DNA of 22,296 nt from a virus: the IMG/VR virus record IMGVR_UViG_3300042907_001459, positions 1 to 22,296 of that record. One strand, written 5' to 3'. A model generated the notes under the pieces. It searched no databases and was not told the origin of the DNA. It saw nothing but the letters and a program-made list of their open reading frames with translations. The position numbers and the translations under genes were made by a program. How positions within the stretch are numbered: position 1 is the stretch's first letter; each line of letters starts with the position of its first letter. This document shows positions 322 through 21,699 of the stretch, one piece after another.

Positions 322-714
322 TTAGTCGTTAATATCCTTCATGCCCTTGAAATTCGGGCGCTCAGAAGTGCTCGAAGCCGTCGAAAGCGGGGTCCGGCCG
401 CCGCTCGCGCGCTTCGCGCGGTCCATGCGAGCCGGCGACTTCATGCCCTCGCACGAACCGCCGTCCTTCTTCACCTTCTTTTCCTTCTTGAGCTTCTCAA
501 ACTCGTGCATGCCGCCGGCTTCATGACCACGGTCATAATAGCCCTGCTTCTTGGCGACCTTGCCGCCCTTCTTAAAGTTGCTGACTTTCTCGTCGGCTTC
601 TTTCGCAGTGTTGCTGTCGCCGCCGGCATACCAGCTCGCACCCTTGTCAGAGTCCGTAACCTTAACGCCCTCTTCAACCTTGCCGCCTTCTTTGCGGTAT
701 GTCTTGCCCTTCAT
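322..714 (-). CDS. Lys/Gly-rich phage protein with repeated xGG(K/R) motif (130 aa)
   Basis: A very basic, low-complexity protein in which short GG motifs recur: RKEGGKV, FKKGGKV, EAGGM, KDGGS and ASGGR. Between them are charged linkers, and it ends with a Ser/Thr-rich tail. A longer frame begins at a TTG at 720, but the ATG at 714 sits 8 bases after AAGGA, a normal spacing, so I prefer 714. The motif is shared with the 332-residue protein at 6289-7287 (KKGGRV, KQGGKV, KDGGRM, KDGGKI), suggesting a common binding or processing role. I recall similar GGKV-rich small proteins from other phages, without a known function. It lies in the late operon downstream of the capsid genes and is probably a virion or assembly component. 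Confidence 0.75.
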   Translation of the reverse strand: MKGKTYRKEGGKVEEGVKVTDSDKGASWYAGGDSNTAKEADEKVSNFKKGGKVAKKQGYYDRGHEAGGMHEFEKLKKEKKVKKDGGSCEGMKSPARMDRAKRASGGRTPLSTASSTSERPNFKGMKDIND

Positions 715-734
715 AGCCAAATTCCTTCTATGTA

Positions 735-1216: not shown

Positions 1217-1969
1217 TTACGTCCTTTCCCCCTGCACGAGGTTTCGCCCCATCGTCCGTGCAGTGTCTGCCGGGCCAGTCGAGGGGGCTAAGGTGCCCGG
1301 TTGTTCTTCAGACACGACGGGCGTGTCTGAAGAGTATTTCAGTAAGTATTTGTAAACACTAAGAACCACTAAAGGGTTATCTTTTAGCATACCCACACCT
1401 ACATTGCAACTGTTACAGAGCAAGCCGCGAACCTTTCCAGTCTCATGACAGTGGTCAACGGCTAACGCTTTTAACTTACCGTTTCTCACACTTACCTCAG
1501 GCAGACCACAAATTGCGCATTTGTTATCTTGTTCTATGACTTTCTTAGAGTATTCAGCAAGAGTTATGCCAAAATCTCTAAGTAAGCTACTGTTAGAACG
1601 TTTCGGTTCGTATGTTTTGCAGTAAGCCTTAGCGTAAGCTAACCGATCGTCTCTATTATTGTGGTCGTACCCAGACAAACCCCGCATTACTTCCAAGTTT
1701 TCGAACCGGTAATCCCGAATGTTCTTATTCTTAAAAGTAACTCGTCTCTCTGGCCACGAACCGGTCATGTAAAACCAAATGGCACGGGGTATCGTAGTTG
1801 ATTGCCTATCAACGACCACATACCCTTTAGTGCCGCCTGCGATCATACCGGCTTTCACATTCTTAGAAACGTCGACCTTCCACTTTAAGACGCCAGTTTC
1901 CGGACAATAGTCAAGAACCTCTAGAAGTCTTTCATGTGAATATGTCGGATCGTCTATCTTACCCTTCAT
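1217..1969 (-). CDS. Free-standing endonuclease: degenerate HNH-type module plus endonuclease VII-like domain
   Basis: Residues 10-95 resemble the N-terminal half of phage HNH homing endonucleases (YCPETGVLKWK, then AGMIAGGTKGYVVV, then IWFYMTGSWP). The usual His-Arg and Asp-His-x-Asn positions are replaced by PRAIW and VTFKNKNIRDYR, so this active site looks dead. Residues 148-195 form a recombination endonuclease VII-like domain: CAIC (C151, C154), VDHCHETGKVRGLL with the catalytic-type D172-H173, and CNSC (C185, C188). The zinc and catalytic positions appear intact. The gene is visibly more A+T-rich than its neighbours up to about position 1335; the last 35 residues return to local base composition. 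It follows the major capsid gene, a frequent insertion site for mobile endonucleases. The SD GGAG, 5 bases before the ATG, lies in a hairpin. Likely role: a mobile endonuclease cutting phage DNA, unless it acts as a resolvase. Confidence 0.88.
   Translation of the reverse strand: MKGKIDDPTYSHERLLEVLDYCPETGVLKWKVDVSKNVKAGMIAGGTKGYVVVDRQSTTIPRAIWFYMTGSWPERRVTFKNKNIRDYRFENLEVMRGLSGYDHNNRDDRLAYAKAYCKTYEPKRSNSSLLRDFGITLAEYSKKVIEQDNKCAICGLPEVSVRNGKLKALAVDHCHETGKVRGLLCNSCNVGVGMLKDNPLVVLSVYKYLLKYSSDTPVVSEEQPGTLAPSTGPADTARTMGRNLVQGERT
1305..1333 (-). repeat. Perfect 12-bp inverted repeat inside the endonuclease 3' end
   Basis: TCTTCAGACACG (1305-1316) and CGTGTCTGAAGA (1322-1333) are exact inverted copies around a 5-base loop. 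The repeat lies in the coding sequence at residues SSDTPVVSEEQ, where A+T-rich endonuclease sequence changes to G+C-rich sequence. A second hairpin, CCGGGC/GCCCGG (1270-1275 and 1295-1300), follows downstream. It could be an RNA structure that slows transcription or protects mRNA, or a scar of insertion. Confidence 0.6.
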
Positions 1970-2073: not shown

Positions 2074-2988
2074 TTAATGAGTCGGGAACGACCCGAAGAT
2101 GCTTCTCCAATTGTAGAATCCAAACGAATATCGTTCGTAGCCCTTGACCAAAAGATTATCGGTCGTAAAGTCTACCTGCATGTCCATTTCGTACGGAACA
2201 CGCTCCATGTAGACCAGACCCTTGATATTGGTCAGGAGGAACCAGGCGTAGTTCGAGGTCAAGAAGTCCATGACCATATAACCTTCCGGCAGGCCGCCGG
2301 CTGTTGTATGGATGGCGTTGACATCGTTGTCCGCCGTGCCCGGACGAAGTTCCGTCTTGGTCAGGCGGATCGCGACCGGCTCGAGGGCCGGCGGGACGAT
2401 CAGCTTGCGACCGCGAGCGAACATTTTCAGACCGGCGATGTCCTTGAAGTTCTGCCGGATGGAGACCATCGCGTTCAGCAAGGACGACTCGTTCAGGTCA
2501 ACCTGGACAATCGGGGTGTTCGGAATGACGCCGCCGTCAATCGGGTGATTGAGCGAGCAGAGCGCCTGTCCGTCACCACCGACCGACGGGTTGTAGGTCT
2601 GGGCGGTGTTGAGGATGTTCGCGCCGTAGATTTCCTTCGTCTGACCGAACGATTCGATCAGGCCAAGGTTCGTCGGCGTAAACTGAGTTTTGTATAAATT
2701 GTCATCAATAGCTTTACGAGTGATCGCGTAGCCGAGACCGATCTCGTAGTGCTCCTGATTGTAGACGTAACGCTCGCTCGCATTGTTGTCGAACGAAACC
2801 GCGCCGCCTTCAGTCTTGATCGCCGCAAGACCGAGGTAACGCATTTCAGCGGTACGCTCAAGCGCCATGTTGGACTTGGCCTTTTCGAAGACCTTGTCCC
2901 ACTGCGACGGGATCTGCGGATACTTGCCTTCAACGCCCCGGAGACCGGGGAGGAGAAGGTCGCGAATAGCCGAAAGATTAACAGCCAT
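2074..2988 (-). CDS. Major capsid protein
   Basis: A 304-residue protein beginning MAVNLSAIRDLLLPGLRGVEGKYPQIPSQWDKVFE. It has motifs familiar from Mu gpT-like/HK97-fold capsid proteins: an early SNMALERTAEMRYLGLAAIKTEGGAVSFD, then YEIGLGYAITRKAIDDNLY, CSLNHPIDGG, a VPPALEPVAIRL core strand and the C-terminal GFYNWRSIFGS. The role is to form the icosahedral shell. The length is normal for an uncleaved HK97-fold shell protein, and no protease gene is seen nearby. GGAG and AAGGA lie just upstream of the ATG. Gene order (scaffold-like, 178 aa, 208 aa, capsid) fits a head-assembly operon. The exact family rests on my pattern memory; the capsid assignment itself is firm. Confidence 0.88.
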   Translation of the reverse strand: MAVNLSAIRDLLLPGLRGVEGKYPQIPSQWDKVFEKAKSNMALERTAEMRYLGLAAIKTEGGAVSFDNNASERYVYNQEHYEIGLGYAITRKAIDDNLYKTQFTPTNLGLIESFGQTKEIYGANILNTAQTYNPSVGGDGQALCSLNHPIDGGVIPNTPIVQVDLNESSLLNAMVSIRQNFKDIAGLKMFARGRKLIVPPALEPVAIRLTKTELRPGTADNDVNAIHTTAGGLPEGYMVMDFLTSNYAWFLLTNIKGLVYMERVPYEMDMQVDFTTDNLLVKGYERYSFGFYNWRSIFGSFPTH

Positions 2989-4436: not shown

Positions 4437-5444
4437 CTAAGCCGTCAGCTTACCTTGCTTAATTAAGAAAGCTTTGTTTCGGGCGTAGGATTCGATAGCT
4501 TTATCGCGGGGGAGGTCGGGTTCAGCGAGAATCGCCATTTCAACCTCATCCGGCCTTAGCGTCATGACGTTGCTCTGGTTGTTCGGTCGCGACGAGATGC
4601 CGTTAGCCGTTGAAGATACGGGGGTTGAAGCGATTGACTTTTTCTGAACGCGAGCCGCCGGGGCTTCGTCTTCCTGATTGGAATACCCGAGACGCGCTTC
4701 AATATAGCGGAAGTATTCCCGGCTTTCCGGCTGTATTCCGTCTTCGACCGCGTCTTCGTGGGCGCGTGTGAGGCGTCCTATTTTACTGACGACCTCGGGG
4801 TGTTCCCGCAACCACTGCGCAGATTTCGGCGTTAGCCGCTGCGCGTACATTTCAACCGGGTCCATCTGAGGCGCAGGAGGAACCTGCGGCTCAAACGACG
4901 GCGGTTGCTGTTTTACGGAACCTTCCGTCGTTTCCTGAAGCTGTTCCTGAAGTCTCGCGCGGCCATTCTGAAGCTGAAGGAGGTGCGATTCTGCCTGAGC
5001 AATAGCCCGCTGCGCCTTTGCGGCCGCTGCATAGTCGCCCGCCGCCATGGCCTCTGCGTAATCGCGCTCTGCTCCGGCTGCCGCCTGTTCGGTAGAGTGT
5101 ATCGCGTTATCAATAATCGCGAGGTTACTCCCCTGAACCTGATTTTGCGCATATTCCGCTTGGTAACGCTGTTGCTGCGCAAATTGTTCGGCTTGTTTTC
5201 GGGCCTCGCGTTCGGCCTCTGCGATTTTCCGCTGATGTTCATACTGAGCGCGGAGATCGTTTAGCGCCTTTTCCCGAGGATCCGGGGCGTCGGGTTCTTC
5301 CCGCTTGGTAGAAACCGGCTCAATCTTTGCTGATGTTTCTTCGATTTTCGCTTTACTGTCACTGATTTCGACTTCAGTAACGGGTTCGTCAGGCAGCGTT
5401 ACCTGAACCGCTTTTTCCTGCGGCGCATCGTCGTCCGTTATCAT
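4437..5444 (-). CDS. Putative capsid scaffold protein (335 aa)
   Basis: The sequence has the typical build of a phage scaffold: an acidic, disordered N-terminus (residues 1-60), a long Gln/Ala/Arg/Glu-rich coiled coil (about 60-175), a Pro-rich hinge (QQPPSFEPQVPPAPQ), and a more compact C-terminal part with SAQWLREHPEVV and a final MTLRPDEVEMAILAEPDLPRDKAIESYARNK. It has no Cys and no enzyme motif. It lies between the GroES-like gene and the capsid cluster, where a scaffold belongs. The role would be to guide capsid subunits into a procapsid and then leave. The start ATG has AGGA at 7 bases, but this can pair with TCCT directly before the ATG. Confidence 0.75.
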   Translation of the reverse strand: MITDDDAPQEKAVQVTLPDEPVTEVEISDSKAKIEETSAKIEPVSTKREEPDAPDPREKALNDLRAQYEHQRKIAEAEREARKQAEQFAQQQRYQAEYAQNQVQGSNLAIIDNAIHSTEQAAAGAERDYAEAMAAGDYAAAAKAQRAIAQAESHLLQLQNGRARLQEQLQETTEGSVKQQPPSFEPQVPPAPQMDPVEMYAQRLTPKSAQWLREHPEVVSKIGRLTRAHEDAVEDGIQPESREYFRYIEARLGYSNQEDEAPAARVQKKSIASTPVSSTANGISSRPNNQSNVMTLRPDEVEMAILAEPDLPRDKAIESYARNKAFLIKQGKLTA

Positions 5445-6288: not shown

Positions 6289-7287
6289 TCAGTAGTTGTC
6301 TTTGCTCTTCGGACCCTTGGTGCCGTAGCTATCAATCTTCTGTTTTCGGCCAAACGCCGACCCCGATCCGAAGTCCATGCTCGGGTAATCGTCCTTACGT
6401 CCAGGTTTCTTGTACGGAACCTGAATTTTTCCGCCATCTTTACGCGGCATGGGCAGTCCGCCGGGCGGCATCATCGGGGGTGCGCCACCCATCATCGGGG
6501 GTCCGCCCATCGGAGGAGCCATCGGAGGCGGAGGAGCCATCGGGGGCGGGGCCGGCGGCATCATCGGGGGCGCTGCACCCATCGGAGCAGCCGCAGGCGC
6601 ACCAGGTTTACCCATTCCGTCCATGCCACCAATGATGACGTTGACCGTGGTCTTACCTTTAGCGTTCTTTGCGGGCTTTTCGGAGGATTCCCCACCCGTG
6701 AGCATGCCGCCTTCAGCGCGCTTGGCGCGACCACCGTACGATTTGCCGGTCAGGGCGTCAGATTTCACCATTTTCTTGACGAGAGCGCGGTCTTCACGCT
6801 CATCTTCGTGCATTCGACCGCCGTCTTTACGCCGAGACGCCTGCGACTCGTGTGAACGGGCCTCATAATCCTGCTGATGACCTTTGTATTTGACTTTGCC
6901 ACCCTGTTTCCGGGTTGTTCCGGGGGCCATCTCGCCGCGCGCAAAGCGCGTTGTCGGGTCGAAGTCTTCCTGCTGGGTCGTTCCGGACGGAATCGCGCCG
7001 ATTCGCGCGCCGCCCATATCACGACCTTTGCGGCCGGCCTTGTCAAGGCGCTTTAGGCTTTCGGCTCCGTGAACTCGACCGCCCTTTTTACGCATAATTC
7101 GCGGCATTGTCTCTTCAGACATTGACGCCGGCTTGTTAAGCGGGGCCATCCCGGCCTGCTTATCGGTGTTCAGCGCATCAAAACCCGCCCAATTCTTAGG
7201 TGTTTTGATGTCTTTTTCTTCAGCCCCGTAGCTTTTCAGCTTTCGGTCATGGGATGCCTTCGCATCTTTCGCGTATTCGTGTGCCAT
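6289..7287 (-). CDS. Basic, Pro/Met-rich phage protein with repeated GG(K/R) motifs (332 aa)
   Basis: The first 60 residues are charged and helical. The rest is dominated by short motifs: RKKGGRVHGAESLKRLDKAGR, RKQGGKVKYKG, RRKDGGRMHED, SYGGRAKRAEGG and, near the C-terminus, PRKDGGKIQVPYKKPGRKDD. Between residues about 215 and 280 lies an Ala/Pro/Met/Gly tract with many APPMM and PPMAPP units, preceded by TTVNVIIGG. The protein has no Cys and no enzyme motif. The GG-plus-basic units also occur in the 130-residue protein at 322-714. I cannot assign a function; a disordered virion protein binding DNA or shell is an inference. AGGA is 8 bases before the ATG, inside the palindrome TTCCTATAGGAA. 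Confidence 0.75.
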   Translation of the reverse strand: MAHEYAKDAKASHDRKLKSYGAEEKDIKTPKNWAGFDALNTDKQAGMAPLNKPASMSEETMPRIMRKKGGRVHGAESLKRLDKAGRKGRDMGGARIGAIPSGTTQQEDFDPTTRFARGEMAPGTTRKQGGKVKYKGHQQDYEARSHESQASRRKDGGRMHEDEREDRALVKKMVKSDALTGKSYGGRAKRAEGGMLTGGESSEKPAKNAKGKTTVNVIIGGMDGMGKPGAPAAAPMGAAPPMMPPAPPPMAPPPPMAPPMGGPPMMGGAPPMMPPGGLPMPRKDGGKIQVPYKKPGRKDDYPSMDFGSGSAFGRKQKIDSYGTKGPKSKDNY

Positions 7288-7481: not shown

Positions 7482-8129
7482 TCAGTAAATCGGGAGACCG
7501 CGACGCGCTCTGTCCGCAGCGACGGCATCTGTGGTAAGTCCAGCGCTCATTCTGCCCTGCCCCGTCTGAAGACGAGGATTTTGGGACATAGCAAGACGAA
7601 GAGCGTCTGCTACTTCGGGGGGCATTCCACCGCCTAATCCGCCTGCCGCAGGTAGTGTCGGGGCATCACCGGGGTAGCCCACCGGCATTACAGGCATACC
7701 AGGAGTGACGGGCTGCCGCCGCTGGTTATATCCCATCCCCTCTTCGCTCTGGTCAAACATCCGCTGGATGTCATTGCGGCTCATGCCCCCACCGAGCTGC
7801 TGCTGCCAGAAGTTCATACCCTGCTCATCCGGAGCACGCCCGAGCTCTTGCTGGTAAAGCATCCGGAGATATTCGTTGTCGTCCATTTGTGTGGGCGCTT
7901 TAGGGGCCAACCCTGAGCCTGGACCCTGGTTCGTTATCATCGGTGGCTGCATGGGGGGCATATTAGTGCCCGGGAATGGTCGAGATGACCCGTCGCCAGA
8001 GAAAATCGGCATTCCAGGGCGCGGTCCTGTGTTCATTATCGGCGGCTGCTGCATGGGCGGCATATCAAAAGCCGGGACGTCCCCTTGCGGCATAGGCATT
8101 CCGCCCTGACCTGCTGATTTGGCACCCAT
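7482..8129 (-). CDS. Pro/Met-rich virion-type protein with one DUF4214-like segment (215 aa)
   Basis: The N-terminal 85 residues are low-complexity Pro/Met/Gly. Residues about 92-135 fit one DUF4214 unit (EYLRMLYQQELGRAPDEQGMNFWQQQL, then MSRNDIQRMFDQSEEG). The C-terminal part has PPEVADALRLAMSQNP, a copy of the ALRIA motif seen in the two larger upstream proteins, and ends DRARRGLPIY. DUF4214 is a short helical repeat found in secreted and surface proteins; its role in phages is not established as far as I know. The gene follows the 957-residue gene by 9 bases, with AGGAG 6 bases before the ATG. I infer a virion component related to its two larger neighbours. Confidence 0.75.
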   Translation of the reverse strand: MGAKSAGQGGMPMPQGDVPAFDMPPMQQPPIMNTGPRPGMPIFSGDGSSRPFPGTNMPPMQPPMITNQGPGSGLAPKAPTQMDDNEYLRMLYQQELGRAPDEQGMNFWQQQLGGGMSRNDIQRMFDQSEEGMGYNQRRQPVTPGMPVMPVGYPGDAPTLPAAGGLGGGMPPEVADALRLAMSQNPRLQTGQGRMSAGLTTDAVAADRARRGLPIY

Positions 8130-8138
8130 TTTAGTCTC

Positions 8139-11012
8139 CTACTTTTTGCGTTGCGCCGCGCGCATATTGTCAACAAGATTTGGGTAGGGTCTACCCGCCG
8201 CCTTTGCCGCTGCTTTAGCTGATGCCTTCTGTTTGTCAGACAGGGACTCAGGCTTACCAAGTGACTTGGGGCGCGACTTGTCCCAAATTGGCTTGCCGCC
8301 GCTCGCGTAACCTGTGCGAGCTAGGGTTTCATGCATTCGGACTGGTTTGTTGGGGCTTTGCGCAATACGAAGCGCGTCTTCTATTGCTCCGCCGTCCGCG
8401 CAATTCCACTTGCGAAGAGACTTATTTATCCGGCTGTTCGGGTCGTTGGCTGTCTCAGAACTCGTAAGTTTCGCCTTCATCCCTTTCATCCGAGCACAGA
8501 AGCTGTCTCGCCGTGGGCCACCTTCCGGCTGCGGTCGCTTGATGTCATGCCCCTGCGCACGAAGAGAGGCGCGGCCCTTTTCATTCAAGCCTCCTTCCGG
8601 GTTCTTGCCTTCCTTGCGTGTCCAGGCGCCGCCATTTGCTTTTGCAATGCGTAATGCGTCTTCGACAACGCCGCCCTTGTTCATAAAGGAGACGCCAAAG
8701 CTGCCCCCCGGTGAAGGAGCGCCGCCATAGCTTGGGAGACCACTCGGCGCGGCGATACCTGGCCCGCCAGACCCGCCGCCTGCGCCGCTAAACTGCGCTG
8801 CGAGCTGAGAGCCCGCAATCATATTCTGCATGGGGGCCCAACTTACAGTGGTAGGCATACCTTGCGGCGTAAAAGTAGACCCTGTCGTCCCCGGCATGGG
8901 CGTCGGCGACGGGTTAGATATTGGCGGGGGCGTTGGCATGGGGGGAAGCGGATTGACCTGCGTGCCGGCTCCCTGATTGATTGGTTGCAGCTGTGGCTGT
9001 GGCGGGGGCGGCTCTGGGCGATAGTCCCCACCGCTCGGATTGCCCCAGTCAGCCGGATTTGGCGGCGTAGGCCGGTTGTTCATAATCATCGCCGGGACAG
9101 GGCCAATCTTGCCCTTGTTCATCGCAGCATCGTTCATCTGCCATGCCCGGACGCTGTTTTCCCAGTTCGCGTAGTCCTGTTTGTATTTAGCCACAGCCTC
9201 TTGATAGTTTGACGGCGGAGGAGGAGGTGGCGGAAGTGTGCTTTGTAGGAGCTCATCGAGCGTGTTGTAGCCGCCGAAAGGACCGTTGCCGGGCGCCGGC
9301 TTTGGTGGCTCAGTTGGTGTTGCAGGTAAAGTGAGGTCAGACGTTGGAGTTGGCTTTTGTTTTAATTGAGATTCAACCTGCTGAATTTGCTGCTGCGTAA
9401 AGTCTTGATATGGCTTTTGTCCGGCGTATTGCTCTTGTGGCTCATAGTTGAACGCAAGGTCAAAGTTTTCTTTAATTTTGTTGTCATATATTGGATTTGA
9501 ATAATAAATGTGCTTTCCTATTGGAGACGCCTTGCCAATTTTTGAATCAGCAAGCGTTTGCGTCCACCTTGGTTGTTTTTTATAAACATTTGGATTTAAG
9601 TAGTTTGTTGCCCCTGGTGTTGGGTTGGGTATTTCCCTTTTAATAATTTTCTGAGCAATATCCATTGCCGCCTGGTTTATAGGACTGTCGGGGTTGTTGA
9701 CAACATCCTCTGCAATTCTAAGTCCTCGTCGAGCCTCTTTGGAAGCAGGGCTTTTCATTGAAGAATATGCAGAGGGAGCCAAGATTTGAGAAGACGGGTC
9801 TCTCGGGTCGTTTGTGTCAAACCATCCACCAAAAAATCCCGGACGCCCTTTCTTTGGTCTAATTCCAGGATTTTCTTTAAACTCTGCGGCCGCCCGCGTG
9901 AATGGCGTATACCCAATAGATGCTAATTCTTTAATATTGTCTGGGGTCAGGTTAGATAAATACTGCTCACCTTCCTGAACTAGAAGAGTTGCCAATTGAA
10001 CAGCCAATGGCTGCGAGCGCATTAACTTGTCTGTTTTCTCGTTTATTTCCAGAGTATTCGGTCCGCTCTTCGCTACAGTTTTTCCAGCTACCTGATATGG
10101 CTCAAAATTACTTGCTTGATATAATTGAGATTCTTCTGTGTTTGAGAGGGCATTACTGATTTCAGTAATTGGCATTCCATTTTCAGCTTGTTCTGTCCAA
10201 TAGTCCAGCCCCGCCTTGTCTGGCTCCCTGCCCATTAATTCTCGATACTCATCCGATATGTAGTCTCGGATTTGTTGAGATTTTTCGGACTGATATTCTT
10301 TATATTCTGGAGTCTTAGAAAACGCATTTTGTATCTCAGATATTGGCATTCCAGACAATAATTGGTTTGTCCAATATTTTACACCAGCAACATCTCCGGA
10401 GCGCCCAAAACTTTCATCATACAAATCCCTAACCGCAGAAGCCGCGCGCTCTCGCGCTTGAGGCTGCTGACGAAACTGGCCCACCAGTCCGCTGGGGTCT
10501 ATTTTCCCTGCGGTGAGTAGACTTGTCCAAAAATTCAAACCTTCTGAATCTGGCTTGCGCCCCAAAATATTCTCATAAGCTTGCGTAACAAAGTTTTTTG
10601 TAGCTGACGCAGAGTCTCCTCCGTCAGCCATGCCAACTCTGCCACCATTTTTTATTGCAAAGACGCCACTGCCATATATTCCCTTTCGATATTCTTCCGG
10701 GTCAATGTAATATTTGGGGTCTTTCGGGTCGTGGCGTTCTTCGGATGGATGCGTATACACGTTTTCTTTGTCAGACCACGGGTCATAGCCATCTTCTCGA
10801 CCATAAGCGCCGCGCTTCTCACGCCATTTATTGACGGATGCCCCGTAATCGGGTGCATAGTCCCCGGGCTTAAGAACACCTCTTCTTACGCGTGAACCCG
10901 CCTCATCAGAGCTATAAAAAGACTCTAGTTCCTTTGGTATAGGCTTTTCTTTTGGCTCGCGCCCCTTGCGGGCTTTTGCGATGCGGAGAGCGTTCTTGAT
11001 GTCCTCGTCCAT
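8139..11012 (-). CDS. Large mosaic virion-type protein: DUF4214-like segments, SleB-like region, Pro-rich linker (957 aa)
   Basis: The protein opens with MDEDIKNALRIAKARKG, matching the start of the 1845-residue neighbour. Residues about 138-300 hold three DUF4214-like units (ENILGRKPDSEGLNFW, ESFGRSGDVAGVKYW, RELMGREPDKAGLDYW). Residues about 340-490 resemble a SleB/CwlJ-type cell-wall hydrolase (SQILAPSAYSSM, then IPNPTPGATNYLNPN and IGKHIYYS), but the usual catalytic Glu region is not convincing. A Gln/Pro-rich linker (about 500-720) follows. The C-terminal region carries two ALRIA motifs around EGGLNEKGRASLRAQGHDIKRPQPEGG...RINKSLRKWNC, a phage domain I recall as DUF6321 (unverified), and ends with GRPYPNLVDNMRAA. 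Bases 9350-10700 are clearly A+T-rich, so the N-terminal half may be acquired. It starts directly after the upstream TAA, with AGGAG 7 bases before the ATG. Confidence 0.82.
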   Translation of the reverse strand: MDEDIKNALRIAKARKGREPKEKPIPKELESFYSSDEAGSRVRRGVLKPGDYAPDYGASVNKWREKRGAYGREDGYDPWSDKENVYTHPSEERHDPKDPKYYIDPEEYRKGIYGSGVFAIKNGGRVGMADGGDSASATKNFVTQAYENILGRKPDSEGLNFWTSLLTAGKIDPSGLVGQFRQQPQARERAASAVRDLYDESFGRSGDVAGVKYWTNQLLSGMPISEIQNAFSKTPEYKEYQSEKSQQIRDYISDEYRELMGREPDKAGLDYWTEQAENGMPITEISNALSNTEESQLYQASNFEPYQVAGKTVAKSGPNTLEINEKTDKLMRSQPLAVQLATLLVQEGEQYLSNLTPDNIKELASIGYTPFTRAAAEFKENPGIRPKKGRPGFFGGWFDTNDPRDPSSQILAPSAYSSMKSPASKEARRGLRIAEDVVNNPDSPINQAAMDIAQKIIKREIPNPTPGATNYLNPNVYKKQPRWTQTLADSKIGKASPIGKHIYYSNPIYDNKIKENFDLAFNYEPQEQYAGQKPYQDFTQQQIQQVESQLKQKPTPTSDLTLPATPTEPPKPAPGNGPFGGYNTLDELLQSTLPPPPPPPSNYQEAVAKYKQDYANWENSVRAWQMNDAAMNKGKIGPVPAMIMNNRPTPPNPADWGNPSGGDYRPEPPPPQPQLQPINQGAGTQVNPLPPMPTPPPISNPSPTPMPGTTGSTFTPQGMPTTVSWAPMQNMIAGSQLAAQFSGAGGGSGGPGIAAPSGLPSYGGAPSPGGSFGVSFMNKGGVVEDALRIAKANGGAWTRKEGKNPEGGLNEKGRASLRAQGHDIKRPQPEGGPRRDSFCARMKGMKAKLTSSETANDPNSRINKSLRKWNCADGGAIEDALRIAQSPNKPVRMHETLARTGYASGGKPIWDKSRPKSLGKPESLSDKQKASAKAAAKAAGRPYPNLVDNMRAAQRKK

Positions 11013-14000
11013 TTACTTGCTCCTGCCACCGCGTGCGAGCTTCATGTCCCAGTCCGGGTCTTTGTCTATCCGGGTGTTTATCTTGCCGCCTTTTAGGCGT
11101 TTGTGGGCAATGCGGAGGGCGTTTTTGACTGCGCCGCCGTCTTTGTAGCTGGGCAAGTCGCCGTAGGGGTTCTGGCCAATAAGCATATCATAAGACCAGT
11201 TGTGAGTTCCGTGGTGACCGCCGTGATGCCCGAAATGGCTGTTGTGGCCAACCGTCGAATGCCCAAATCCGTGGGAACCGGCATAATCACTGAAACTTGG
11301 GCTGTGTATTGCGTGAGAACCTAAATCAGGCCCAAAACTTACGCCAAAGTCATGAGATGTATGAACGGGCGTATGGTGTATAGGCGCGTGGTGTATAGGC
11401 GCAGAATGAACGGGGCTGTGGATTACGGGCGTTGTGTGGTGAACTACATTTCCGATGTGCGGCGTATGGATACCCGCGCCGCCTCCTGTAAAATCGCCAC
11501 CCGCGCCGCTTATGTCCGCCGCTCCTGACGTTCCGCCGCCACCGGGGACAAAACCAGAGTCGCCGCCAGCTATCCCAGCGCCGCCGGGCATGTAACCTGA
11601 ACCGCCGCCAAAATTATCTTGCGCCGGAATCAGAACGTCATCGCTCGGGCGCGGGGGCGGAAGCGGCGCTTGCGTCTCGCTCTCTGTTTCTGCTGCGGCA
11701 GTCGTACCTCCGCTACGTGCTGCTTCGAGCGTTTTTCGGAAATCAGCGACGCTGTGCCCGGACTTATTTCCGCTACCATAAAATGACGCGCCCGTCAGCG
11801 GATTGGGCAACGAGGCCCATTCTTTGGCCCCGTCCATCATCGCGGCAACAACATTGTTTGACTTGCCAATTAAATAGTTCATTAGATTGGGTCGACGCGC
11901 AATTAGCGCTGCGCCCAACGCGTCCTGCGTTTCGTTATCAAATTTTCGGTTGACGTCAATACCGGTTTCTTTAACGAGCGACCGCATCGTATCAGGGATG
12001 ATTTGATAGCGACCTACCGCAAATAATTTCCGTCCTTTTGCGGGCGAGCCTTGCTGGAGTTCCATAATCTCGCGGATCGTCATATCTTTCAAATGCTTTC
12101 CGACGTAACGACTCGCGTCTTGTGTGCTGTTAATGACTTTGCCGCCGACGGTTCCGTTATTCATCGCGTCGTAGCCGCCCTCTCCTTTAGAAATAAAATC
12201 AAGAAACGTCCTCGCGCCTTCGGAGAGAGTTTTATTCGGACCTGTGAATAACTGTTGCGCACCTTTGATTATTTGACCGGGGGCGTTTAGAACCGCCCCT
12301 AGTGTTTCCTTAACCCGATCCATGAAGGAAGGTGCCGGACTATTTGAAACGATTTCCGACGGTCGTGTCGGCGGCAGTGGAGCGTTAACCATCTTGCCAA
12401 TTTCAGACGCTGCCTCTTTAGGTGACAGCACGCCCTTCGCCATCGGGTCGGACATCATTGATAGTGACGCCTGCTCTTCGGCTGTCGGCTCACGATTCGT
12501 CAGCGAGCGGAATACGCCCGAGGCAAAGCTGCTGGGGTCATCCGGATTAAAGTTGGCAATCGCGTCGTTAACCTTCATCGCGTTTATCGACGCATCAACA
12601 TAAGGTTTGTATACACCGTTCTCGCCCAGGCCATTCCTGAGAGCGTTCGCCGCGAACTGATATTTGTCTACAACATTGTCCTTGCCCGACAGCATAACAT
12701 TCGGGTCGATATAGCCTGTCGGAATCTGCTGGTTTGCGCCCAAGCCCTTATTCAAAAGCGTCGAAGCGAATGAAGTCGGGAAAACATCGTTCGACTCAGA
12801 AACGCCCCAAACATTCGGGTCACGATAGCCGTCCGGCATTGGGCCGCGCTCGCCAATGCTCTTGAGGGCCGTTGCCGCGAAATCATACGGATTGACCTCG
12901 TTGATGCCGCTTTTGGCCGCTTCAAACTGCCTATCCATGTAGCCCGCGTATTCGGGGCTCTGCATAAGCGTCTGACCAACATCGGCCAAATCCATTCGCC
13001 CCTGGGCAATCTGGTCTTTAAAATAATTCAGTCCGTCAGCATCCGGCTGGCGGCCAAGCACGTATTGATACATGCTGCCGACCTGGTTCATCTGCGCCTC
13101 TGGGGACGCCGCGAACACACGCGCGACCTCTGAAGGAGACGCGCCTTGATTGAGCGCGTTCAAAAAGAAGTTCTGCCCCTCAAAATCAGGTGCGCGGCCC
13201 GTGTAGGAATGATAAAGACTCGAGACAAAAGACGAATAGTCCTGCGGATTGACTGTAACCTGATTAGAGCGTAGCTGCTCAAGGGGCGGCGCAAGAGGCG
13301 GCGTCGCCATGTCCGACCGCCCGATATTCGGATTCCAAACCGGGATTTCATTCCGATTGTCCGGTGTCGTCGCGGATCCGTTCATGCCGGGCGTCGTCGT
13401 CCCGGCGCTCGGGCCTGTTGTTCCTGGGACAACGATGTTGTCGCCCATGCCCGGCGTGCGCATGTCCGGAACAGGAACATTCGGATTGAGAGGCGGCAAA
13501 GGCGTCGAGGGTGTCGGCGTAAGCGCCGGATTAAGCGGTGGTGTTGGGGTGTTCGACGTCGGAATATTCGGGTTGAACGCGGGGAGCGTTGTCGGCTGCT
13601 GCGTTGGATTTAAAGCAGGGTTCAAAGGCGGCGTCGGGATGTTCGACGTCGGGATGTTCGGGTTAAACGGCGGAAGCGGATTCGGCTGCGTCGGCGGCGT
13701 TAGTTGCGGGTTCAAAGGCGGCGTCGGGATATTCGACGTCGGAATATTCGGATTCCAATTCGGTAGTGGGGATGACGGTAGGAAGCGATTGGCTTGAGAG
13801 AACGTAACTGGGTTCGCCTCACGATACGCACGCGCCCAATTCATCGCCTCCGTCGCCTCACGGGGTGCGCGCCCATATGCCGACTCAAATGCGCGCCCTA
13901 AATCGGCCGCGTAAACTTGTCCCTCGGTCGACTGTTGGAATTGCTGAGAAAGATCCGGCGCGCCAATCGCGCCCGACTGCAAGTGGCCGAGCCAGAAGGC

Positions 14001-16550
14001 CTGCCCGGCTGGGTCCGGTGCGCGTCCGAGATAGTTGTTATACGCAGCTGAAACAGCCGCCTGCTGTTCCTCATCTTGTTCAGGCGTCCGCATGCCTGGC
14101 TGTCCGCCGTTTGCCAGTGCACTACGTGCGACGCGCATCGCGTCTTGAACCTGAGCGTCTTCAGGCATATTCATGCCCATGCTGCTCGTCATGTTCAAAG
14201 CCGGCGTGTGGACGCCGTTGCTCAAGTCAAGTGGTGACTTCTGCGGGTTGTAAACAGCGTTGAGCGAATTTACCTGGTCGCCGTACGCCGCGCCGCCGAA
14301 CGCTTTTTCAACGGGTTCTTCGTCCGTCGCCATAACCGCCCCTGCGCCAGCACCAACAGCACCGAGCGGTCCCGCGCCGCGAATAAGTTTCGGGATCGCG
14401 GTATATGACGTTGCAGCGGTCGGGTCTTCTTCGATTTTCTTTACTGTCTCATACGCATCAAGCGCGCGGCCGACCGGCGCGGTATACGGGTTCGCATAAA
14501 GCGGGGCCGTCTTCAACCCATAAAGCGTATTTAGAACTTTGTTGGCTGTTCCCGCGTAATCATACGGGAGTTCGCCGAGTTCCTTCTTGCCGCCCAGCAG
14601 CGGGGCGTCAACGACGACTTTGCGCTTCGGGGCTTCCGGCTCTGCGCCGCCTTCAAATTCATAGGCGTGGCGCTTCAACTGATACTCACGAATGTCAGGC
14701 TCGCTTGATAGCTTTTCTGCGGGCGGCGTGATCTTCAGGCCCCGGAAGGGCGACCAAGTCTTGCGCTCGACCGTTCCTTCTTCAGTGGTGCCGCCATCGG
14801 CATATTTTCTTGCGATTTTTAGTGCATATGAGTTGTCTGCGGGTTTACGATTCCTACCGCGTATGTTTGTTCCGCCAGCGTCTGTGCTTTCGTCGTGTCT
14901 CTTGTGGGCTTCTTCCACCCCGCCCCCTCTTGAGAACAGATGTTCTCCAAAATGTTTCATAACCAATTCCCCAGGGTTATCTTCATAAAGATGCGTCACA
15001 AGCCCCAGCTTCTCAAGTTTACGCAACACTTCTGGGTCGGTCCCTTTTGGTGCTAAAGCCCCAGCAAATTCTTCTAACTTAACCTCGCGTTGCGGTTTGC
15101 CTTCAAAATACGGAACGTAAAGTTGATCCCTTTCGTCCAAAATTTTCTGGGCTAACTCTAAATCTTTTTTGTTGGCTGTGGGAAAATATTTCTTCAAATC
15201 GCCAGCGCGGGCTGCGTCTACAATATATGCGCGTGCACTTGGTGAACCCAGTTCTTCTTTTAGCTTTGGGTCAGCATGCGCGCTTAATAACTGGTCCATA
15301 ATCGAAAGATCATCAACGGCCTTAAACCCATACATACCGGGTGTAGCGCTTATTAAATTTCGACGAGAATTAACATCCTCGATTGTTTTCAATAACGGTG
15401 CGGTGTGTGCATAAAAGCTTGTTGGGCTGTCATAATTAGCAATATTTTTATATTGTCCCGGACTATACGAAACGCCCCCCCGCGTGGGGATGCTCTTCAT
15501 ATGCTCCGTAAGGTTTTCGAGAGTTGCCGGTGTGTCCGGGCCTTTTACGCTGCTATGAAATTTTCCTTCAGATATTTTAGGAAGCGTCGGGGTATACGCA
15601 TCCGTTGAAAATATGGGGTTGTCCTCTGCAGGCGTGCCCAGATGTTTCTTACCAACTAGCGTAATATCGCCGTAGCCTCCGAACTGATTTAAATAATTTT
15701 CTGGCTTCGTGATGGCCAAGCTTGGCGTAGGTAATCCGCCCCATTCCGCGATCTGATCAATATAACTGCTTGGGAATTGGTGTAGAACGGCCAACCGCTC
15801 ATCCGTACTTAACGGAGGTGCGTTTTCTAAGGAGCGTCGTTCGAAGGGTGAAATATGCTCGGGTTTTGTAGCAAAAATATCATGCTCTTCGTAACCTTGA
15901 CGACGAGCATCTGCCACTAAATCGTCGGCCAGCCTCTGCTCCAGTTTAGCATGCTGTTCAGGGGTCAGCTCGTTAGCGGGCTTGCCAAACATCTCTCCCG
16001 AAAAATCATTTGCAAAATCTTGATAATGTGTTTTTAACGACTCTTTCATTTCGGGAGCGTATTTACTAAGGGACGCCTCCGAGTAACCTAATGGCTTCGC
16101 AAATTTTTCAGTCGCCTTCGCTACCTTCGCCATAGGCGCAGCTGCCATCGCAAGTTTCGCAGCCAACGGTGCTTTGAGGGCAGCGCCCGTAGCCGTGCCA
16201 ACAACCGGAACAGCCTGCAGAACATCGCCTACAGCACCCAGGCCCTTTAGCCCTGCAGAGAGATATTCTCGTTTCTTGATGTCTTCCATCAGAGAAGGCT
16301 CAAACCCCCCTTCAGCCGTCGGGAATTTTCCAGCAGCGGCGGCGAGGCCCGTTCCCGGAACAAGGCCCGCAGCCATCAGTCCCGCTTCCTTAGCCGTCCG
16401 CATCCCACCTTCCGGGTCATACTGAGGTGCGGAGCCCTCTAGCTCGCGGCGAAGAAATTCTTCCTGACCGGCTTCGTCGGGGACGCCACCATCGGCATAA
16501 CCGCGCGCCCGAAGCGCCAGCCGCAGAGCGTTCTTAATCGTGGCGTCCAT
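11013..16550 (-). CDS. Giant mosaic virion/polyvalent-type protein with muramidase domain (1845 aa)
   Basis: Modules in order: MDATIKNALRLALRARGYADGG start; Ala/Gly-rich hydrophobic stretch (about 45-150); a region like large phage polyvalent proteins (about 150-540: WGGLPTPSLAITKP, FGGYGDITLVGKK, NPIFSTDAYTP, YFEGKPQREVKLEEFAGAL); ALKIARKYADGG (about 570); AMRVARSALANGG (about 805); DUF4214-like units (about 825-920 and 1095-1200) flanking 30-residue Pro/Asn repeats. A muramidase domain follows (about 1445-1610; SKGEGGYDAMNNG, AVGRYQIIPDTMRSL, ETQDALGAAL, EWASLPNP), resembling lambda R-type transglycosylase. The tail is Gly-rich then His-rich and ends with VKNALRIAHKRLKGG. Likely a virion protein that opens peptidoglycan and enters the cell. 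ATG 16550 is preferred over GTG 16553 because it gives TGATG coupling to the portal stop, with AAGGA 8 bases upstream, and aligns with the next protein's start. Confidence 0.85.
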   Translation of the reverse strand: MDATIKNALRLALRARGYADGGVPDEAGQEEFLRRELEGSAPQYDPEGGMRTAKEAGLMAAGLVPGTGLAAAAGKFPTAEGGFEPSLMEDIKKREYLSAGLKGLGAVGDVLQAVPVVGTATGAALKAPLAAKLAMAAAPMAKVAKATEKFAKPLGYSEASLSKYAPEMKESLKTHYQDFANDFSGEMFGKPANELTPEQHAKLEQRLADDLVADARRQGYEEHDIFATKPEHISPFERRSLENAPPLSTDERLAVLHQFPSSYIDQIAEWGGLPTPSLAITKPENYLNQFGGYGDITLVGKKHLGTPAEDNPIFSTDAYTPTLPKISEGKFHSSVKGPDTPATLENLTEHMKSIPTRGGVSYSPGQYKNIANYDSPTSFYAHTAPLLKTIEDVNSRRNLISATPGMYGFKAVDDLSIMDQLLSAHADPKLKEELGSPSARAYIVDAARAGDLKKYFPTANKKDLELAQKILDERDQLYVPYFEGKPQREVKLEEFAGALAPKGTDPEVLRKLEKLGLVTHLYEDNPGELVMKHFGEHLFSRGGGVEEAHKRHDESTDAGGTNIRGRNRKPADNSYALKIARKYADGGTTEEGTVERKTWSPFRGLKITPPAEKLSSEPDIREYQLKRHAYEFEGGAEPEAPKRKVVVDAPLLGGKKELGELPYDYAGTANKVLNTLYGLKTAPLYANPYTAPVGRALDAYETVKKIEEDPTAATSYTAIPKLIRGAGPLGAVGAGAGAVMATDEEPVEKAFGGAAYGDQVNSLNAVYNPQKSPLDLSNGVHTPALNMTSSMGMNMPEDAQVQDAMRVARSALANGGQPGMRTPEQDEEQQAAVSAAYNNYLGRAPDPAGQAFWLGHLQSGAIGAPDLSQQFQQSTEGQVYAADLGRAFESAYGRAPREATEAMNWARAYREANPVTFSQANRFLPSSPLPNWNPNIPTSNIPTPPLNPQLTPPTQPNPLPPFNPNIPTSNIPTPPLNPALNPTQQPTTLPAFNPNIPTSNTPTPPLNPALTPTPSTPLPPLNPNVPVPDMRTPGMGDNIVVPGTTGPSAGTTTPGMNGSATTPDNRNEIPVWNPNIGRSDMATPPLAPPLEQLRSNQVTVNPQDYSSFVSSLYHSYTGRAPDFEGQNFFLNALNQGASPSEVARVFAASPEAQMNQVGSMYQYVLGRQPDADGLNYFKDQIAQGRMDLADVGQTLMQSPEYAGYMDRQFEAAKSGINEVNPYDFAATALKSIGERGPMPDGYRDPNVWGVSESNDVFPTSFASTLLNKGLGANQQIPTGYIDPNVMLSGKDNVVDKYQFAANALRNGLGENGVYKPYVDASINAMKVNDAIANFNPDDPSSFASGVFRSLTNREPTAEEQASLSMMSDPMAKGVLSPKEAASEIGKMVNAPLPPTRPSEIVSNSPAPSFMDRVKETLGAVLNAPGQIIKGAQQLFTGPNKTLSEGARTFLDFISKGEGGYDAMNNGTVGGKVINSTQDASRYVGKHLKDMTIREIMELQQGSPAKGRKLFAVGRYQIIPDTMRSLVKETGIDVNRKFDNETQDALGAALIARRPNLMNYLIGKSNNVVAAMMDGAKEWASLPNPLTGASFYGSGNKSGHSVADFRKTLEAARSGGTTAAAETESETQAPLPPPRPSDDVLIPAQDNFGGGSGYMPGGAGIAGGDSGFVPGGGGTSGAADISGAGGDFTGGGAGIHTPHIGNVVHHTTPVIHSPVHSAPIHHAPIHHTPVHTSHDFGVSFGPDLGSHAIHSPSFSDYAGSHGFGHSTVGHNSHFGHHGGHHGTHNWSYDMLIGQNPYGDLPSYKDGGAVKNALRIAHKRLKGGKINTRIDKDPDWDMKLARGGRSK
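13461..13750 (-). repeat. 90-bp tandem repeats coding 30-residue Pro/Asn units
   Basis: GTTCGACGTC or ATTCGACGTC recurs at 13551, 13641 and 13731, exactly 90 bases apart, and a diverged copy (CATGTCCGGA) sits 90 bases further at 13461. Each unit codes for NPNIPTSNIPTPPLNPxL followed by a Pro/Thr spacer and LPxF. A fifth, more distant unit (WNPNIGRSDMATPPLAPPL) lies near 13310. They form an extended linker between DUF4214-like segments. Confidence 0.8.
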
Positions 16551-18838
16551 CACACAGGTCCTTCGCCTGACTTAATAAGATCATGCGCGCGATCAGCGGC
16601 TGCCTGCTGCGCTTCCTGCTCTTTGTCGCGGTTTATATTTCGCTGCGCGTGCGCAAGGTCGAGGCCCTTAATCCTTGTCGCATTTAGCAGGCTCTTATCG
16701 TGCAATCGCTCATCAAGCGAAAGTTTGTCGCGATGAACAAGCTGCGTTTGCTGAAGCTTCAAGCCCTCAAGCTGGAGTTTCGCATTCCTATCCTGCGCGT
16801 GATTGACCGCATCCGTCTTAGCGATCTGACGCCGCGTAAGTGCGTCAATATTCTGCGAACCGATCTGCGCCATCTTCGCCTGTACCTCAGCCGCTGACGT
16901 CTGGGCCTTCACTTGCGTATCGGCCATCTTCGCCTGCGCTGTCATCAACTTCGCCTGTGCGTCCATCATACGCGTCGGATCCGGCTGATGCTGAGCCGGC
17001 GGCTGCTTGTTGAATAGGTCCTGCGCATCCTCAACACCAATCATCGAGAAAATGCGGTTGTATACTGCCTGCTGATCAAACGCCATCGGATTCTGCTGCG
17101 CAATCGTGTAGATCGCAATCGCCTTCTGAATCCTGAGCGTTTGGGACGCCGTATTGGGGTCCGCTTTCGGGACAATGAAGTTATTCTCGAGCGCCGCTTG
17201 AAGCATTGCGGCGTCGCCCTGAAAATTCGGGTTCTTGTTATTGCGCCAAAGAACGCTCGGGTCTCGCCGGAACAATTCCTTCAACAACCCGAACTCTTTG
17301 CACTGCGCCTGGTGCATTCGTTTGTGAACTGCGCCGACAACTTTCGTCGCCTGATCGATCATGGCAATCGTCGTGCCAACCGGCGCGTCATTGCGTCCCT
17401 CGCCCACAGCCGTATCCGCCGTGCCGCCCAAACGCTGAGATGTCTGCTCAACGTTCTGGATGATACTGACGAAGCCGCCGCCGACGTCTCGGTACGGAAG
17501 CGGCATAAATGCCTGGTTCAACGGAACGCCGTCTACATCCATCGGCGCGACTTGGCCCGGTCCCACGCGGATGTTAGTCGTTTGCTGTTTTCCGGTAGAT
17601 CGAGCCATAACGCCGCCCGGAAAATTAGCGAGCATACCATTGTCAAGAGCAATACGCCAAGCCGCCGTAAGAGCGCGAGAAGCATTACCCAGAATATGCA
17701 AGAGGCCAAGGTTAACACCAGGAAAAGCGGGGACAAACACGTATTCGACGAAGACTTCTTTCCGGACATATGCCTTGTCTCCTTCTTCCCACCATCGGCG
17801 GATTTCAAGGATCTGGCGGCTTTCTTTGTCCAGTGTTACTCTATACGGTAGAGGAAGCCCTGTCGTTTCGCCGTCTTCTGTGTGTTCAAAACCCTTTAGA
17901 TCAATCTCACAATAACACTCGTAGATTTCCCGGTCCGAATCTTCCATGCCCATATTCATCTTGGGCTGCATTCCGGAAATTTCGTCAAGCTTGCGGTCAA
18001 CAATGTTGAGGTCCGGCATCGCAACGCCGCCGTCAAGCGCAACGTCTCGCCACGCCCCGACCAACTGCATCTGCTTCACAACGCTCGGGCGCATCCGGGA
18101 ACGGTGCGTGATCCGGCCGCAAGCCTCGAGAGACACGGCCCCATCGCTAAGAATGATATCTTTGCGGTCAATCGTTTCTGATACCGGGCGACGTTTAAGC
18201 GGATGCCAATAGACTTTTTTGTAGGCCTCGCCGCCGTGTCCAAGCGAGAAGAACATGCGGTCAGTGTCGGGGTAGTATTCCGGCGCACCTGTCGTCAAGT
18301 AGTGGTTGAAATCCTGCTGGAGCTTCATCGCCTGTTGATCCAGTTGCAGCGTACCGTCGCCCTCGTTCGACACTTTGACCGGGCCGTCCGCCGGCAAGAG
18401 CTCGCCGCGCGCGTTCGCCTGGAAACGAAGAACCGCCTCAAGCAAGAGCGGATGCCGAATAACCGAAATACCTTCTTCGTTCGGCTCTGTGCGCGGTTCC
18501 TCGAGCTTGATTCCGAGTAGTTCGATTCCCTTTACGACGTCTTGAAGTCGCTGCTCCTGTCGCGTAATGTCGTCTGTAATCAGGCGCAAAAGGTCGTCGG
18601 AGATTCCGCCGAGTGTGCCTGAGTCAAGATACATCGCGAGGTTTGCGTCGTGGTCGCTTGACTCGTCCGGTGGGACAACGCCGAGGCCGCCAAAATTAAT
18701 CGTAACGGCGCCGTCGGGTAGATCGATTACGAGGGCGTCAGGCTTTACCTTCCCGAGATCACCGAGGTCAACGGTTTCAGAACCCGGCGGGGCCGGAGCC
18801 TGATCTTCGGGTTGTTGGATAAAGCGAAAATCGTCCAT
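16550..18838 (-). CDS. Portal protein (762 aa)
   Basis: The size and order match large portal proteins of the P22 type (P22 gp1 is 725 residues). After a disordered N-terminus come the helical wing (MYLDSGTLGGISDDLLRLITDDITRQEQRLQDVVKGIELLGI), RHPLLLEAVLRFQANARGEL, and the familiar core YYPDTDRMFFSLGHGGEAYKKVYWHPLKRRPVS with IILSDGAVSLEACGRITHR. Further on are GLGLLHILGN-like and NVEQTSQRLGGTAD segments, and a long C-terminal coiled coil (about 630-750; repeated AQAKM units) like the P22 barrel. A dodecameric ring at one capsid vertex, it is the DNA channel and docks the terminase. It follows the 75-residue gene by 11 bases and couples through TGATG to the giant gene. Confidence 0.88.
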   Translation of the reverse strand: MDDFRFIQQPEDQAPAPPGSETVDLGDLGKVKPDALVIDLPDGAVTINFGGLGVVPPDESSDHDANLAMYLDSGTLGGISDDLLRLITDDITRQEQRLQDVVKGIELLGIKLEEPRTEPNEEGISVIRHPLLLEAVLRFQANARGELLPADGPVKVSNEGDGTLQLDQQAMKLQQDFNHYLTTGAPEYYPDTDRMFFSLGHGGEAYKKVYWHPLKRRPVSETIDRKDIILSDGAVSLEACGRITHRSRMRPSVVKQMQLVGAWRDVALDGGVAMPDLNIVDRKLDEISGMQPKMNMGMEDSDREIYECYCEIDLKGFEHTEDGETTGLPLPYRVTLDKESRQILEIRRWWEEGDKAYVRKEVFVEYVFVPAFPGVNLGLLHILGNASRALTAAWRIALDNGMLANFPGGVMARSTGKQQTTNIRVGPGQVAPMDVDGVPLNQAFMPLPYRDVGGGFVSIIQNVEQTSQRLGGTADTAVGEGRNDAPVGTTIAMIDQATKVVGAVHKRMHQAQCKEFGLLKELFRRDPSVLWRNNKNPNFQGDAAMLQAALENNFIVPKADPNTASQTLRIQKAIAIYTIAQQNPMAFDQQAVYNRIFSMIGVEDAQDLFNKQPPAQHQPDPTRMMDAQAKLMTAQAKMADTQVKAQTSAAEVQAKMAQIGSQNIDALTRRQIAKTDAVNHAQDRNAKLQLEGLKLQQTQLVHRDKLSLDERLHDKSLLNATRIKGLDLAHAQRNINRDKEQEAQQAAADRAHDLIKSGEGPV

Positions 18839-21456: not shown

Positions 21457-21699
21457 TTAAACGAGCTTTTCACCGCCCTGCATCCCGAGCGCAGCCATGT
21501 AAGTCTCTAAGACTGCCTGCTCCTCTACACGCTTTTTAGCGTCCTTCTTGCGTAGAGCAATCACAGTCTTCAACGCCTTCTTATCAAACCCATTGCCCTC
21601 TGCTTCTTTATAAACGTCCTTGATATCCGCGGAGATCGCCGCCTTCTCCTCCTCGAGCTTTTCAATCCGCTCAACAATAGTTTTAAGCTGCTGCGTCAC
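21457..21699 (-). CDS. gapR-like: GapR-like (DUF2312) DNA-binding protein (80 aa)
   Basis: Nearly the whole protein matches the DUF2312/GapR pattern: [46 protein letters not shown], then a C-terminal [10 protein letters not shown]. GapR of Caulobacter and relatives is a small chromosome-structuring protein that binds overtwisted A+T-rich DNA ahead of replication and transcription. The family is characteristic of Alphaproteobacteria, so this phage copy points to such a host. A role on phage DNA, or in interfering with host GapR, is inference. The start is GTG with GGGAG about 8 bases upstream, inside the nuclease gene with which it overlaps by 17 bases. Confidence 0.9.

Follow-up and report, generated by a model that had tools for sequence, protein, structure and literature searches.

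In only a few phages is it known what marks the large proteins destined for injection for packaging. In T4, 10 N-terminal residues suffice to target proteins into the head, and the internal-protein cargo is later ejected and engages host defenses (PMC9026906). In P1, the first 30 residues of DarB are enough to direct packaging into the head (PMC9024508), and DarA and Hdf are located on the inner shell (PMC12810830). Polyvalent phage proteins, which combine domains of the kinds described below, were predicted to be packaged and injected (PMC5512222).

We analyzed a 22,296-base window, which is the whole of IMG/VR record IMGVR_UViG_3300042907_001459. Based on its ORFs and on Pfam and PHROGs matches, the window was a tailed-phage head module encoded on the minus strand. 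The initial annotation of this DNA had pointed to a short helical motif that recurred in three of the encoded proteins, and here we refer to each copy of this motif as a tag. The phages that carry it are uncultured freshwater phages.

Results

Eight copies of a short motif in three consecutive proteins

The head module was arranged in the order GapR-like protein, small terminase, large terminase, portal, proteins of 1845, 957, 215, and 332 aa, GroES-like co-chaperonin, 335-aa protein, and Mu gpT-like capsid protein (Table 1). The portal was 24-41% identical to the portals of HTVC023P-type pelagiphages, roseophage CRP-902, Caulobacter phage RW, and others, and the GapR-like protein hinted at an alphaproteobacterial host.

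Table 1. Positions of genes, modules, and tag copies in the window
Feature	Position	Strand	Remarks
GapR-like DNA-binding protein	21457..21699		Pfam E 8e-30; adjoins terminase genes
Portal (head-to-tail connector)	16550..18838	minus	anchors position of the tagged gene island
1845-aa modular protein	11013..16550	minus	first after portal gene; four tags; PBECR5, DUF4214, lysozyme-like (ORF, Pfam/PHROGs)
Tag 1, IKNALRLA, residues 5-12 of 1845-aa protein	16515..16538	minus	N-terminal, then YADGG
PBECR5 (phage BECR-fold nuclease-like) match, residues 253-327 of 1845-aa protein	15570..15794	minus	Pfam E 1.8e-11
Tag 2, NSYALKIA, residues 573-580 of 1845-aa protein	14811..14834	minus	then YADGG
Tag 3, VQDAMRVA, residues 801-808 of 1845-aa protein	14127..14150	minus	precedes DUF4214 repeats
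Endolysin/lysozyme-like module, residues 1449-1608 of 1845-aa protein	11727..12206	minus	PHROGs
Tag 4, VKNALRIA, residues 1808-1815 of 1845-aa protein	11106..11129	minus	between KDGGA and KGG, close to C-terminus
957-aa modular protein	8139..11012	minus	three tags, three DUF4214, DUF6321, phrog_34011 (ORF, Pfam, PHROGs)
Tag 5, IKNALRIA, residues 5-12 of 957-aa protein	10977..11000	minus	N-terminal; AF2 helix 3-17, low confidence
Tag 6, VEDALRIA, residues 783-790 of 957-aa protein	8643..8666	minus	follows NKGGV, precedes DUF6321; AF2 helix 782-792, low confidence
DUF6321 module, residues 802-869 of 957-aa protein	8406..8609	minus	Pfam E 7e-16
Tag 7, IEDALRIA, residues 877-884 of 957-aa protein	8361..8384	minus	between DUF6321 and HETLART + PRPK units; AF2 helix 876-885, low confidence
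phrog_34011 module (PRPKSLGK...AAGRPYPNLVDNMRAA), residues 908-956 of 957-aa protein	8145..8291	minus	PHROGs
215-aa protein	7482..8129	minus	one DUF4214 and one tag (ORF, Pfam)
Tag 8, VADALRLA, residues 173-180 of 215-aa protein	7590..7613	minus	
DUF4214 repeats, in all three tagged proteins	10128..10274; 13092..13235; 7737..7898		
332-aa protein	6289..7287		
335-aa protein, upstream of capsid gene	4437..5444	minus	putative scaffold from position; candidate tag partner
Major capsid protein (Mu gpT-like)	2074..2988	minus	92-93% identical in DPY-tag phages
Endonuclease VII/HNH-type gene	1217..1969		inserted right behind capsid gene
132-aa protein	322..720		

All eight segments that the initial annotation had named were present, on the minus strand and in three consecutive ORFs downstream of the portal. 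Two of the proteins indeed began with the motif, MDATIKNALRLA and MDEDIKNALRIA being the N-terminal copies. We used [IVLY]xxA[LM][RK][ILV]A as the strict pattern, which was matched by seven of the eight copies; NSYALKIA matched a looser core only. In 2000 residue shuffles of the three proteins, the strict pattern occurred 0.0085 times on average and at most once, and the loose core, with 8 copies observed, occurred 0.08 times. No copy was found in any other protein of the window. The residues of the copies were alike and their codons differed (for example, GCT CTC CGC ATC GCA, GCA TTA CGC ATT GCA, and GCG CTT CGT ATT GCG). These synonymous differences indicated that selection acted on the peptide and not on the DNA, and the differing codons likewise disfavored a recent origin as a DNA repeat.

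Several other features of the window were observed. The DUF4214 repeats had phycobilisome linker domains and the N-terminal domain of RsaA as their nearest solved structures (E above 0.001), and the homologue in L033 was matched by the Pfam phycobilisome linker family. No report of DUF4214 in phage virions was found in the open-licence literature. The 332-aa and 132-aa proteins carried a separate recurrent element, [KR]xGG[KR]V, around which relatives kept PRIMRKxGGxVxGAxSLKRLDKAxRK; GGR[VI]G[YF] elements were present in L124 and in pelagiphage HTVC027P. Several relatives had homing endonucleases within their cargo islands that resembled the product of the gene behind the capsid gene.

Anatomy and placement of the tag

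The tag consensus was (GG-x)-[VI]-x-x-A-L-x-[LI]-[A/T/V]-x-[RK], in which one helical face was hydrophobic. The mean helical moment was 0.66 at 100 degrees, with a median p of 0.05 against shuffles of each 10-mer. In an AlphaFold2 model of the 957-aa protein, which was poor overall (mean pLDDT 46), all three tags fell on helices.

We then considered 87 tags from 25 genomes, of which 25 were N-terminal, 20 were C-terminal, and the remainder were internal. N-terminal tags started at residue 5 in 15 cases, residue 6 in 9, and residue 7 in 2 (26 of 32 in total). The number of tags climbed with protein length (Spearman 0.46), at about one tag per 395 aa. The initial annotation had described the helix as being followed by a flexible segment, often with Gly-Gly. 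GG followed five of the eight copies in the window, but among the 87 tags GG was at least as common upstream (44, within 5 residues) as downstream (38, within 14 residues). In the window, three copies came directly after GG-x, and one more had GG five residues before it.

The proposal that the copies mark module boundaries held as a tendency. HETLART units were tagged in 5 of 5 cases, PRPK units in 15 of 32, and M1 units in 5 of 10, but only 12 of 41 DUF6321 units were directly preceded by a tag, which indicated that the tag was not bound to every module. A strict cassette arrangement of one tag per cargo module was therefore only partly true. In the case of the HETLART unit, L078 had it as a gene of its own with an N-terminal tag, and in the window it was internally fused, tag included.

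Tagged and untagged proteins of the island

The 51 portal relatives that we collected contained more than 70 further copies, nearly all of them in genes directly downstream of the portal. Across seven non-redundant relatives, including the window, the strict pattern occurred 29 times in the island proteins, which totaled 14,574 aa, and was absent from all remaining ORFs, which totaled 64,552 aa (Fisher p 5e-22; 0.017 matches expected after shuffling). Other, unrelated phages had 1 strict match in 361,589 aa. Thus, the motif did not occur at a background level in unrelated proteins, the outcome that the initial annotation had named as its refutation. As judged from gene neighborhood, the copies appeared to be confined to virion genes.

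A pattern scan of IMG/VR returned 50 contigs, compared to 19 with the reversed pattern. Twenty-four of the 50 belonged to the phage family of the window, one (L073) belonged to another lineage, and the others looked like chance matches. The L073 contig had no match to the window proteins, and the tag reached another phage lineage there; its copies, ISKAMRLARRYADGG, INAALNIARRKKK, and GGAIDDALRLARKYAGGG, were in two small proteins adjoining tail and virion genes (L073:847-1864, minus strand). G008 had a tagged candidate cargo protein outside the island; it was 567 aa long, ended in IANALRLARGGQIG, and was encoded at a great distance from the portal (48775-50478; L158:8775-10478). No ALRLA tag was found in cultured phages of the phage collection, and MinM2, phiGT1, HTVC027P, and Caulobacter phage RW had no convincing copy. 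MinM2 and phiGT1 had polyvalent-type proteins and lacked the tag; the ALRLA tag is not universal among virion-cargo proteins.

Among the complete island proteins of 14 relatives, 20 were 200 aa or longer and 18 of these were tagged; the two that were not were HNH-type and GIY-YIG homing endonucleases. The untagged island proteins of less than 200 aa were two more endonucleases, a phage lysozyme, a VanY-like peptidase, and three stand-alone DUF6321 proteins. Homing endonucleases, and presumably the small lysis enzymes, are not expected to be virion cargo and therefore served as a negative control from the same island.

The domains found on tagged proteins were DUF4214, DUF6321, PBECR5, lysozyme, ART-PolyVal (below the Pfam cut-off in three relatives), InPase, peptidase M15, and GNAT. 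As in polyvalent proteins, several effector-type domains were present per polypeptide (PBECR5 and the lysozyme-like module in the window; ART-PolyVal, InPase, M15, and GNAT in relatives), and the genes were located with virion genes, next to the portal.

Hundreds of T4-like cyanophages, as well as MinM2, encoded proteins with segments that were 61-84% identical to the DUF6321 module of the window. The stand-alone MinM2 version (81 aa) was annotated as a "RecA-like recombination protein" with no visible basis, and the ACG-2014f version came last in a protein of 949 aa, whose gene was located between gp16 and gp17. We found no literature on DUF6321 among open-licence papers. The DUF6321 proteins of ACG-2014f (L170:1394-4243; FSNWRDD, FSNWRDN, and FSSWRDD, a FSNWRD-like segment present three times) and Sf-FS3 (L339:1055-2965; MDWRDSY, SNWKEDF, and SDWRSEL) contained repeats between small basic Cys-containing modules, which could be an analogue of the tag. 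A WRD-type repeat was not clearly seen in S-SSM7, S-PRM1, and S-RIM8, and we therefore treat the cyanophage repeat as an analogy only.

Tag switching between lineages

Three relatives (G004, G006, and G007) had capsid proteins that were 92-93% identical to that of the window and no ALRLA copies. In the G004 type, DPYxx[VI]Q[QE]AA was the sole strong short repeat within the genome, with four to six copies in the complete DPY-clade proteins that were examined. One DPY copy was located between DUF6321 and a PRPK unit, which is the slot of an ALRLA tag in the window, and other relatives had VARxYR or AMxMI forms in this slot. The ct7L0027 lineage (L124, L183, and L185) had C-terminal AL-x-LT forms and N-terminal VK[RK]AL, and the cultured roseophage CRP-902 had MANP[VI]K at the N-termini of four proteins, one of which was its PBECR5 protein. 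The proteins of CRP-902 with N-terminal tags were gp65, gp66, gp68, and gp72.

At variable positions, tag similarity was 8.1 within a genome compared to 4.3 between genomes (25 genomes, homologous flanks excluded), an excess that was reached in 0 of 5000 label permutations. The tag differs among lineages and agrees inside one genome. In the portal tree, the DPY clade was sister to an ALRLA pair (99/98), so at least one tag switch must have taken place. Tag type largely followed the portal phylogeny, and the within-genome agreement was thus partly due to common descent within a lineage.

Discussion

The initial annotation had offered a docking tag for the capsid interior or the portal as one role for the motif. 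This role was the best fit to the location, the taxon spread, the protein-level conservation, the within-genome agreement, and the untagged lysis-type and homing genes; a partner and a location in the virion would be predictions from sequence. We put it at slightly better than an even chance that the motif is a short docking tag whose amphipathic helix brings large cargo into the head: the motif is real, selected at the protein level, and nearly confined to the island, and packaging, a common partner, and avidity are the predicted parts. Specifically, the tag would be a helix of about 10 residues, [VI]xxAL[RK][LI]A, in flexible Gly-Gly-rich linkers, placed at the N-terminus, the C-terminus, and the module joints of large proteins encoded between the portal and scaffold/capsid genes. 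The tags may bind a single shared partner of the phage (the scaffold, the portal, or the inner face of the shell) while the head assembles and so recruit the cargo, with several tags per protein providing avidity. The tagged proteins would be packaged in the head and ejected with the DNA. If the tag and its partner co-evolve, then incoming cargo modules would have to gain the local tag.

Between the two tag types, the scaffold candidate was 48-58% identical, the portal was 60-68% identical, and the capsid protein was about 92-93% identical. Because its protein was near-constant across tag types, the capsid shell is less likely to be the partner than are the scaffold candidate and the portal. 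No single head protein stood out as the partner in this comparison, in which the DPY phages were one clade. Two findings argued against docking. The stand-alone DUF6321 genes of tagged islands were usually untagged, which means that their products are packaged in another way or not packaged, or that the tag is not required, and the polyvalent-type proteins of the cultured relatives MinM2 and phiGT1 were also without it.

The amphipathic helical moment, the multiple copies per protein, and their presence in neighboring proteins would also be expected if the tags bound each other and joined the ejected proteins as an internal core or as a trans-envelope conduit (ejectosome). Self-binding would account for the within-genome agreement combined with switching at 92-93% capsid identity, but the N-terminal copies were strictly at residues 5-7, which is more typical of targeting peptides, and an 8-residue core is short for a stable coiled coil. 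We regard such homotypic assembly as unlikely, but worth keeping in mind. Less likely still, in our judgment, is that the tags are generic linkers or spacer helices that separate modules and bind nothing in particular. The tags were in low-confidence, probably disordered stretches and at joints, and DUF6321 units occurred both with and without them, as spacers might. However, this explanation does not account for the conservation of A-L-R-[LI]-A amid free synonymous change, for the copies at the extreme N- and C-termini, or for the concerted exchange of the motif for another one in related phages.

A processing site after GG had also been suggested. We consider it very improbable that the helix is a recognition element for a cut that follows GG in the style of double-glycine leaders or prohead processing. 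T4 capsid-targeting peptides are removed after packaging (PMC9026906), and GG was downstream of and near 38 of the 87 tags, but GG was found before the tags as often as after them, several tags lacked it, and C-terminal tags often had no downstream GG. In addition, S78, ClpP-like, S49, and C39 proteases were not found in ten related records, some of them incomplete, although other proteases or those of the host could act instead. With inconsistent GG and no C39 peptidase in those ten records, the tag did not resemble a double-glycine leader. The copies were located at the joints of strongly mosaic proteins, which would suit a recombination-junction remnant, a stretch of repeated DNA that multiplies through duplication and steers the shuffling of modules but has no function as protein. 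This origin is barely credible because the copies differed at synonymous sites and DNA identity was not kept.

Starting from the docking tag, we tentatively propose a broader idea, which we think is possible but doubtful, that the tags form an interchangeable address code. In many uncultured phages, each lineage would mark its large packaged proteins with one short helical peptide, often in multiple copies, and modules passing from one lineage to another (PBECR5, ART-PolyVal, and DUF6321-bearing proteins) would adopt the code of the recipient (ALRLA, AL-x-LT, DPYxxVQxAA, VARxYR, or MANPVKGA). If this were true, the injected proteins of a phage could be listed from its sequence alone. A tag that can be recognized in sequence could predict cargo in uncultured phages, where most such genes lack an assigned function, and the natural tag swaps between close relatives, together with the untagged controls from the same island, make the packaging question directly testable.

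The T4 capsid-targeting peptides (CTS) of IPI, IPII, and IPIII are about 10 residues long, N-terminal on unrelated head cargo, and self-sufficient as packaging information (PMC9026906), and the tag may be compared to them on the basis of its placement. Like the CTS, N-terminal tags were found at residues 5-7 on different proteins of one genome. Unlike the CTS, which is N-terminal only, the tags were also internal and C-terminal, with several per protein. The T4 CTS is cut off by gp21; members of the four protease families named above were not found in the ten records, which included incomplete contigs. The CTS sequence appears to differ from the ALRLA-like core of the tag. In the case of P1 DarB, a short N-terminal signal likewise directs the packaging of a very large antirestriction protein, but what is described is a single signal at a single end of one protein, and the available part of the report mentions no repeated tag on multiple proteins (PMC9024508). 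The polyvalent proteins share the domain make-up (PBECR, ART-PolyVal, InPase, and lysozyme) and the virion-gene neighborhood, but the available part of their description includes neither a repeated short tag between domains nor an explanation of head recruitment (Iyer et al. 2017, PMC5512222).

An earlier description of a repeated, lineage-switching tag was not found in our search, which was limited to open-licence papers. The cargo-loading peptides of encapsulins and the encapsulation peptides of bacterial microcompartments are short, often helical, and terminal, and they lie behind a Gly-rich linker on unrelated cargo of one shell. These peptides serve other shells and have other sequences, and the likeness to the tag would be one of logic only. 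T4 and P1 already provide examples of capsid-targeting tags; what would be new is a form that is multivalent, internal, and switchable.
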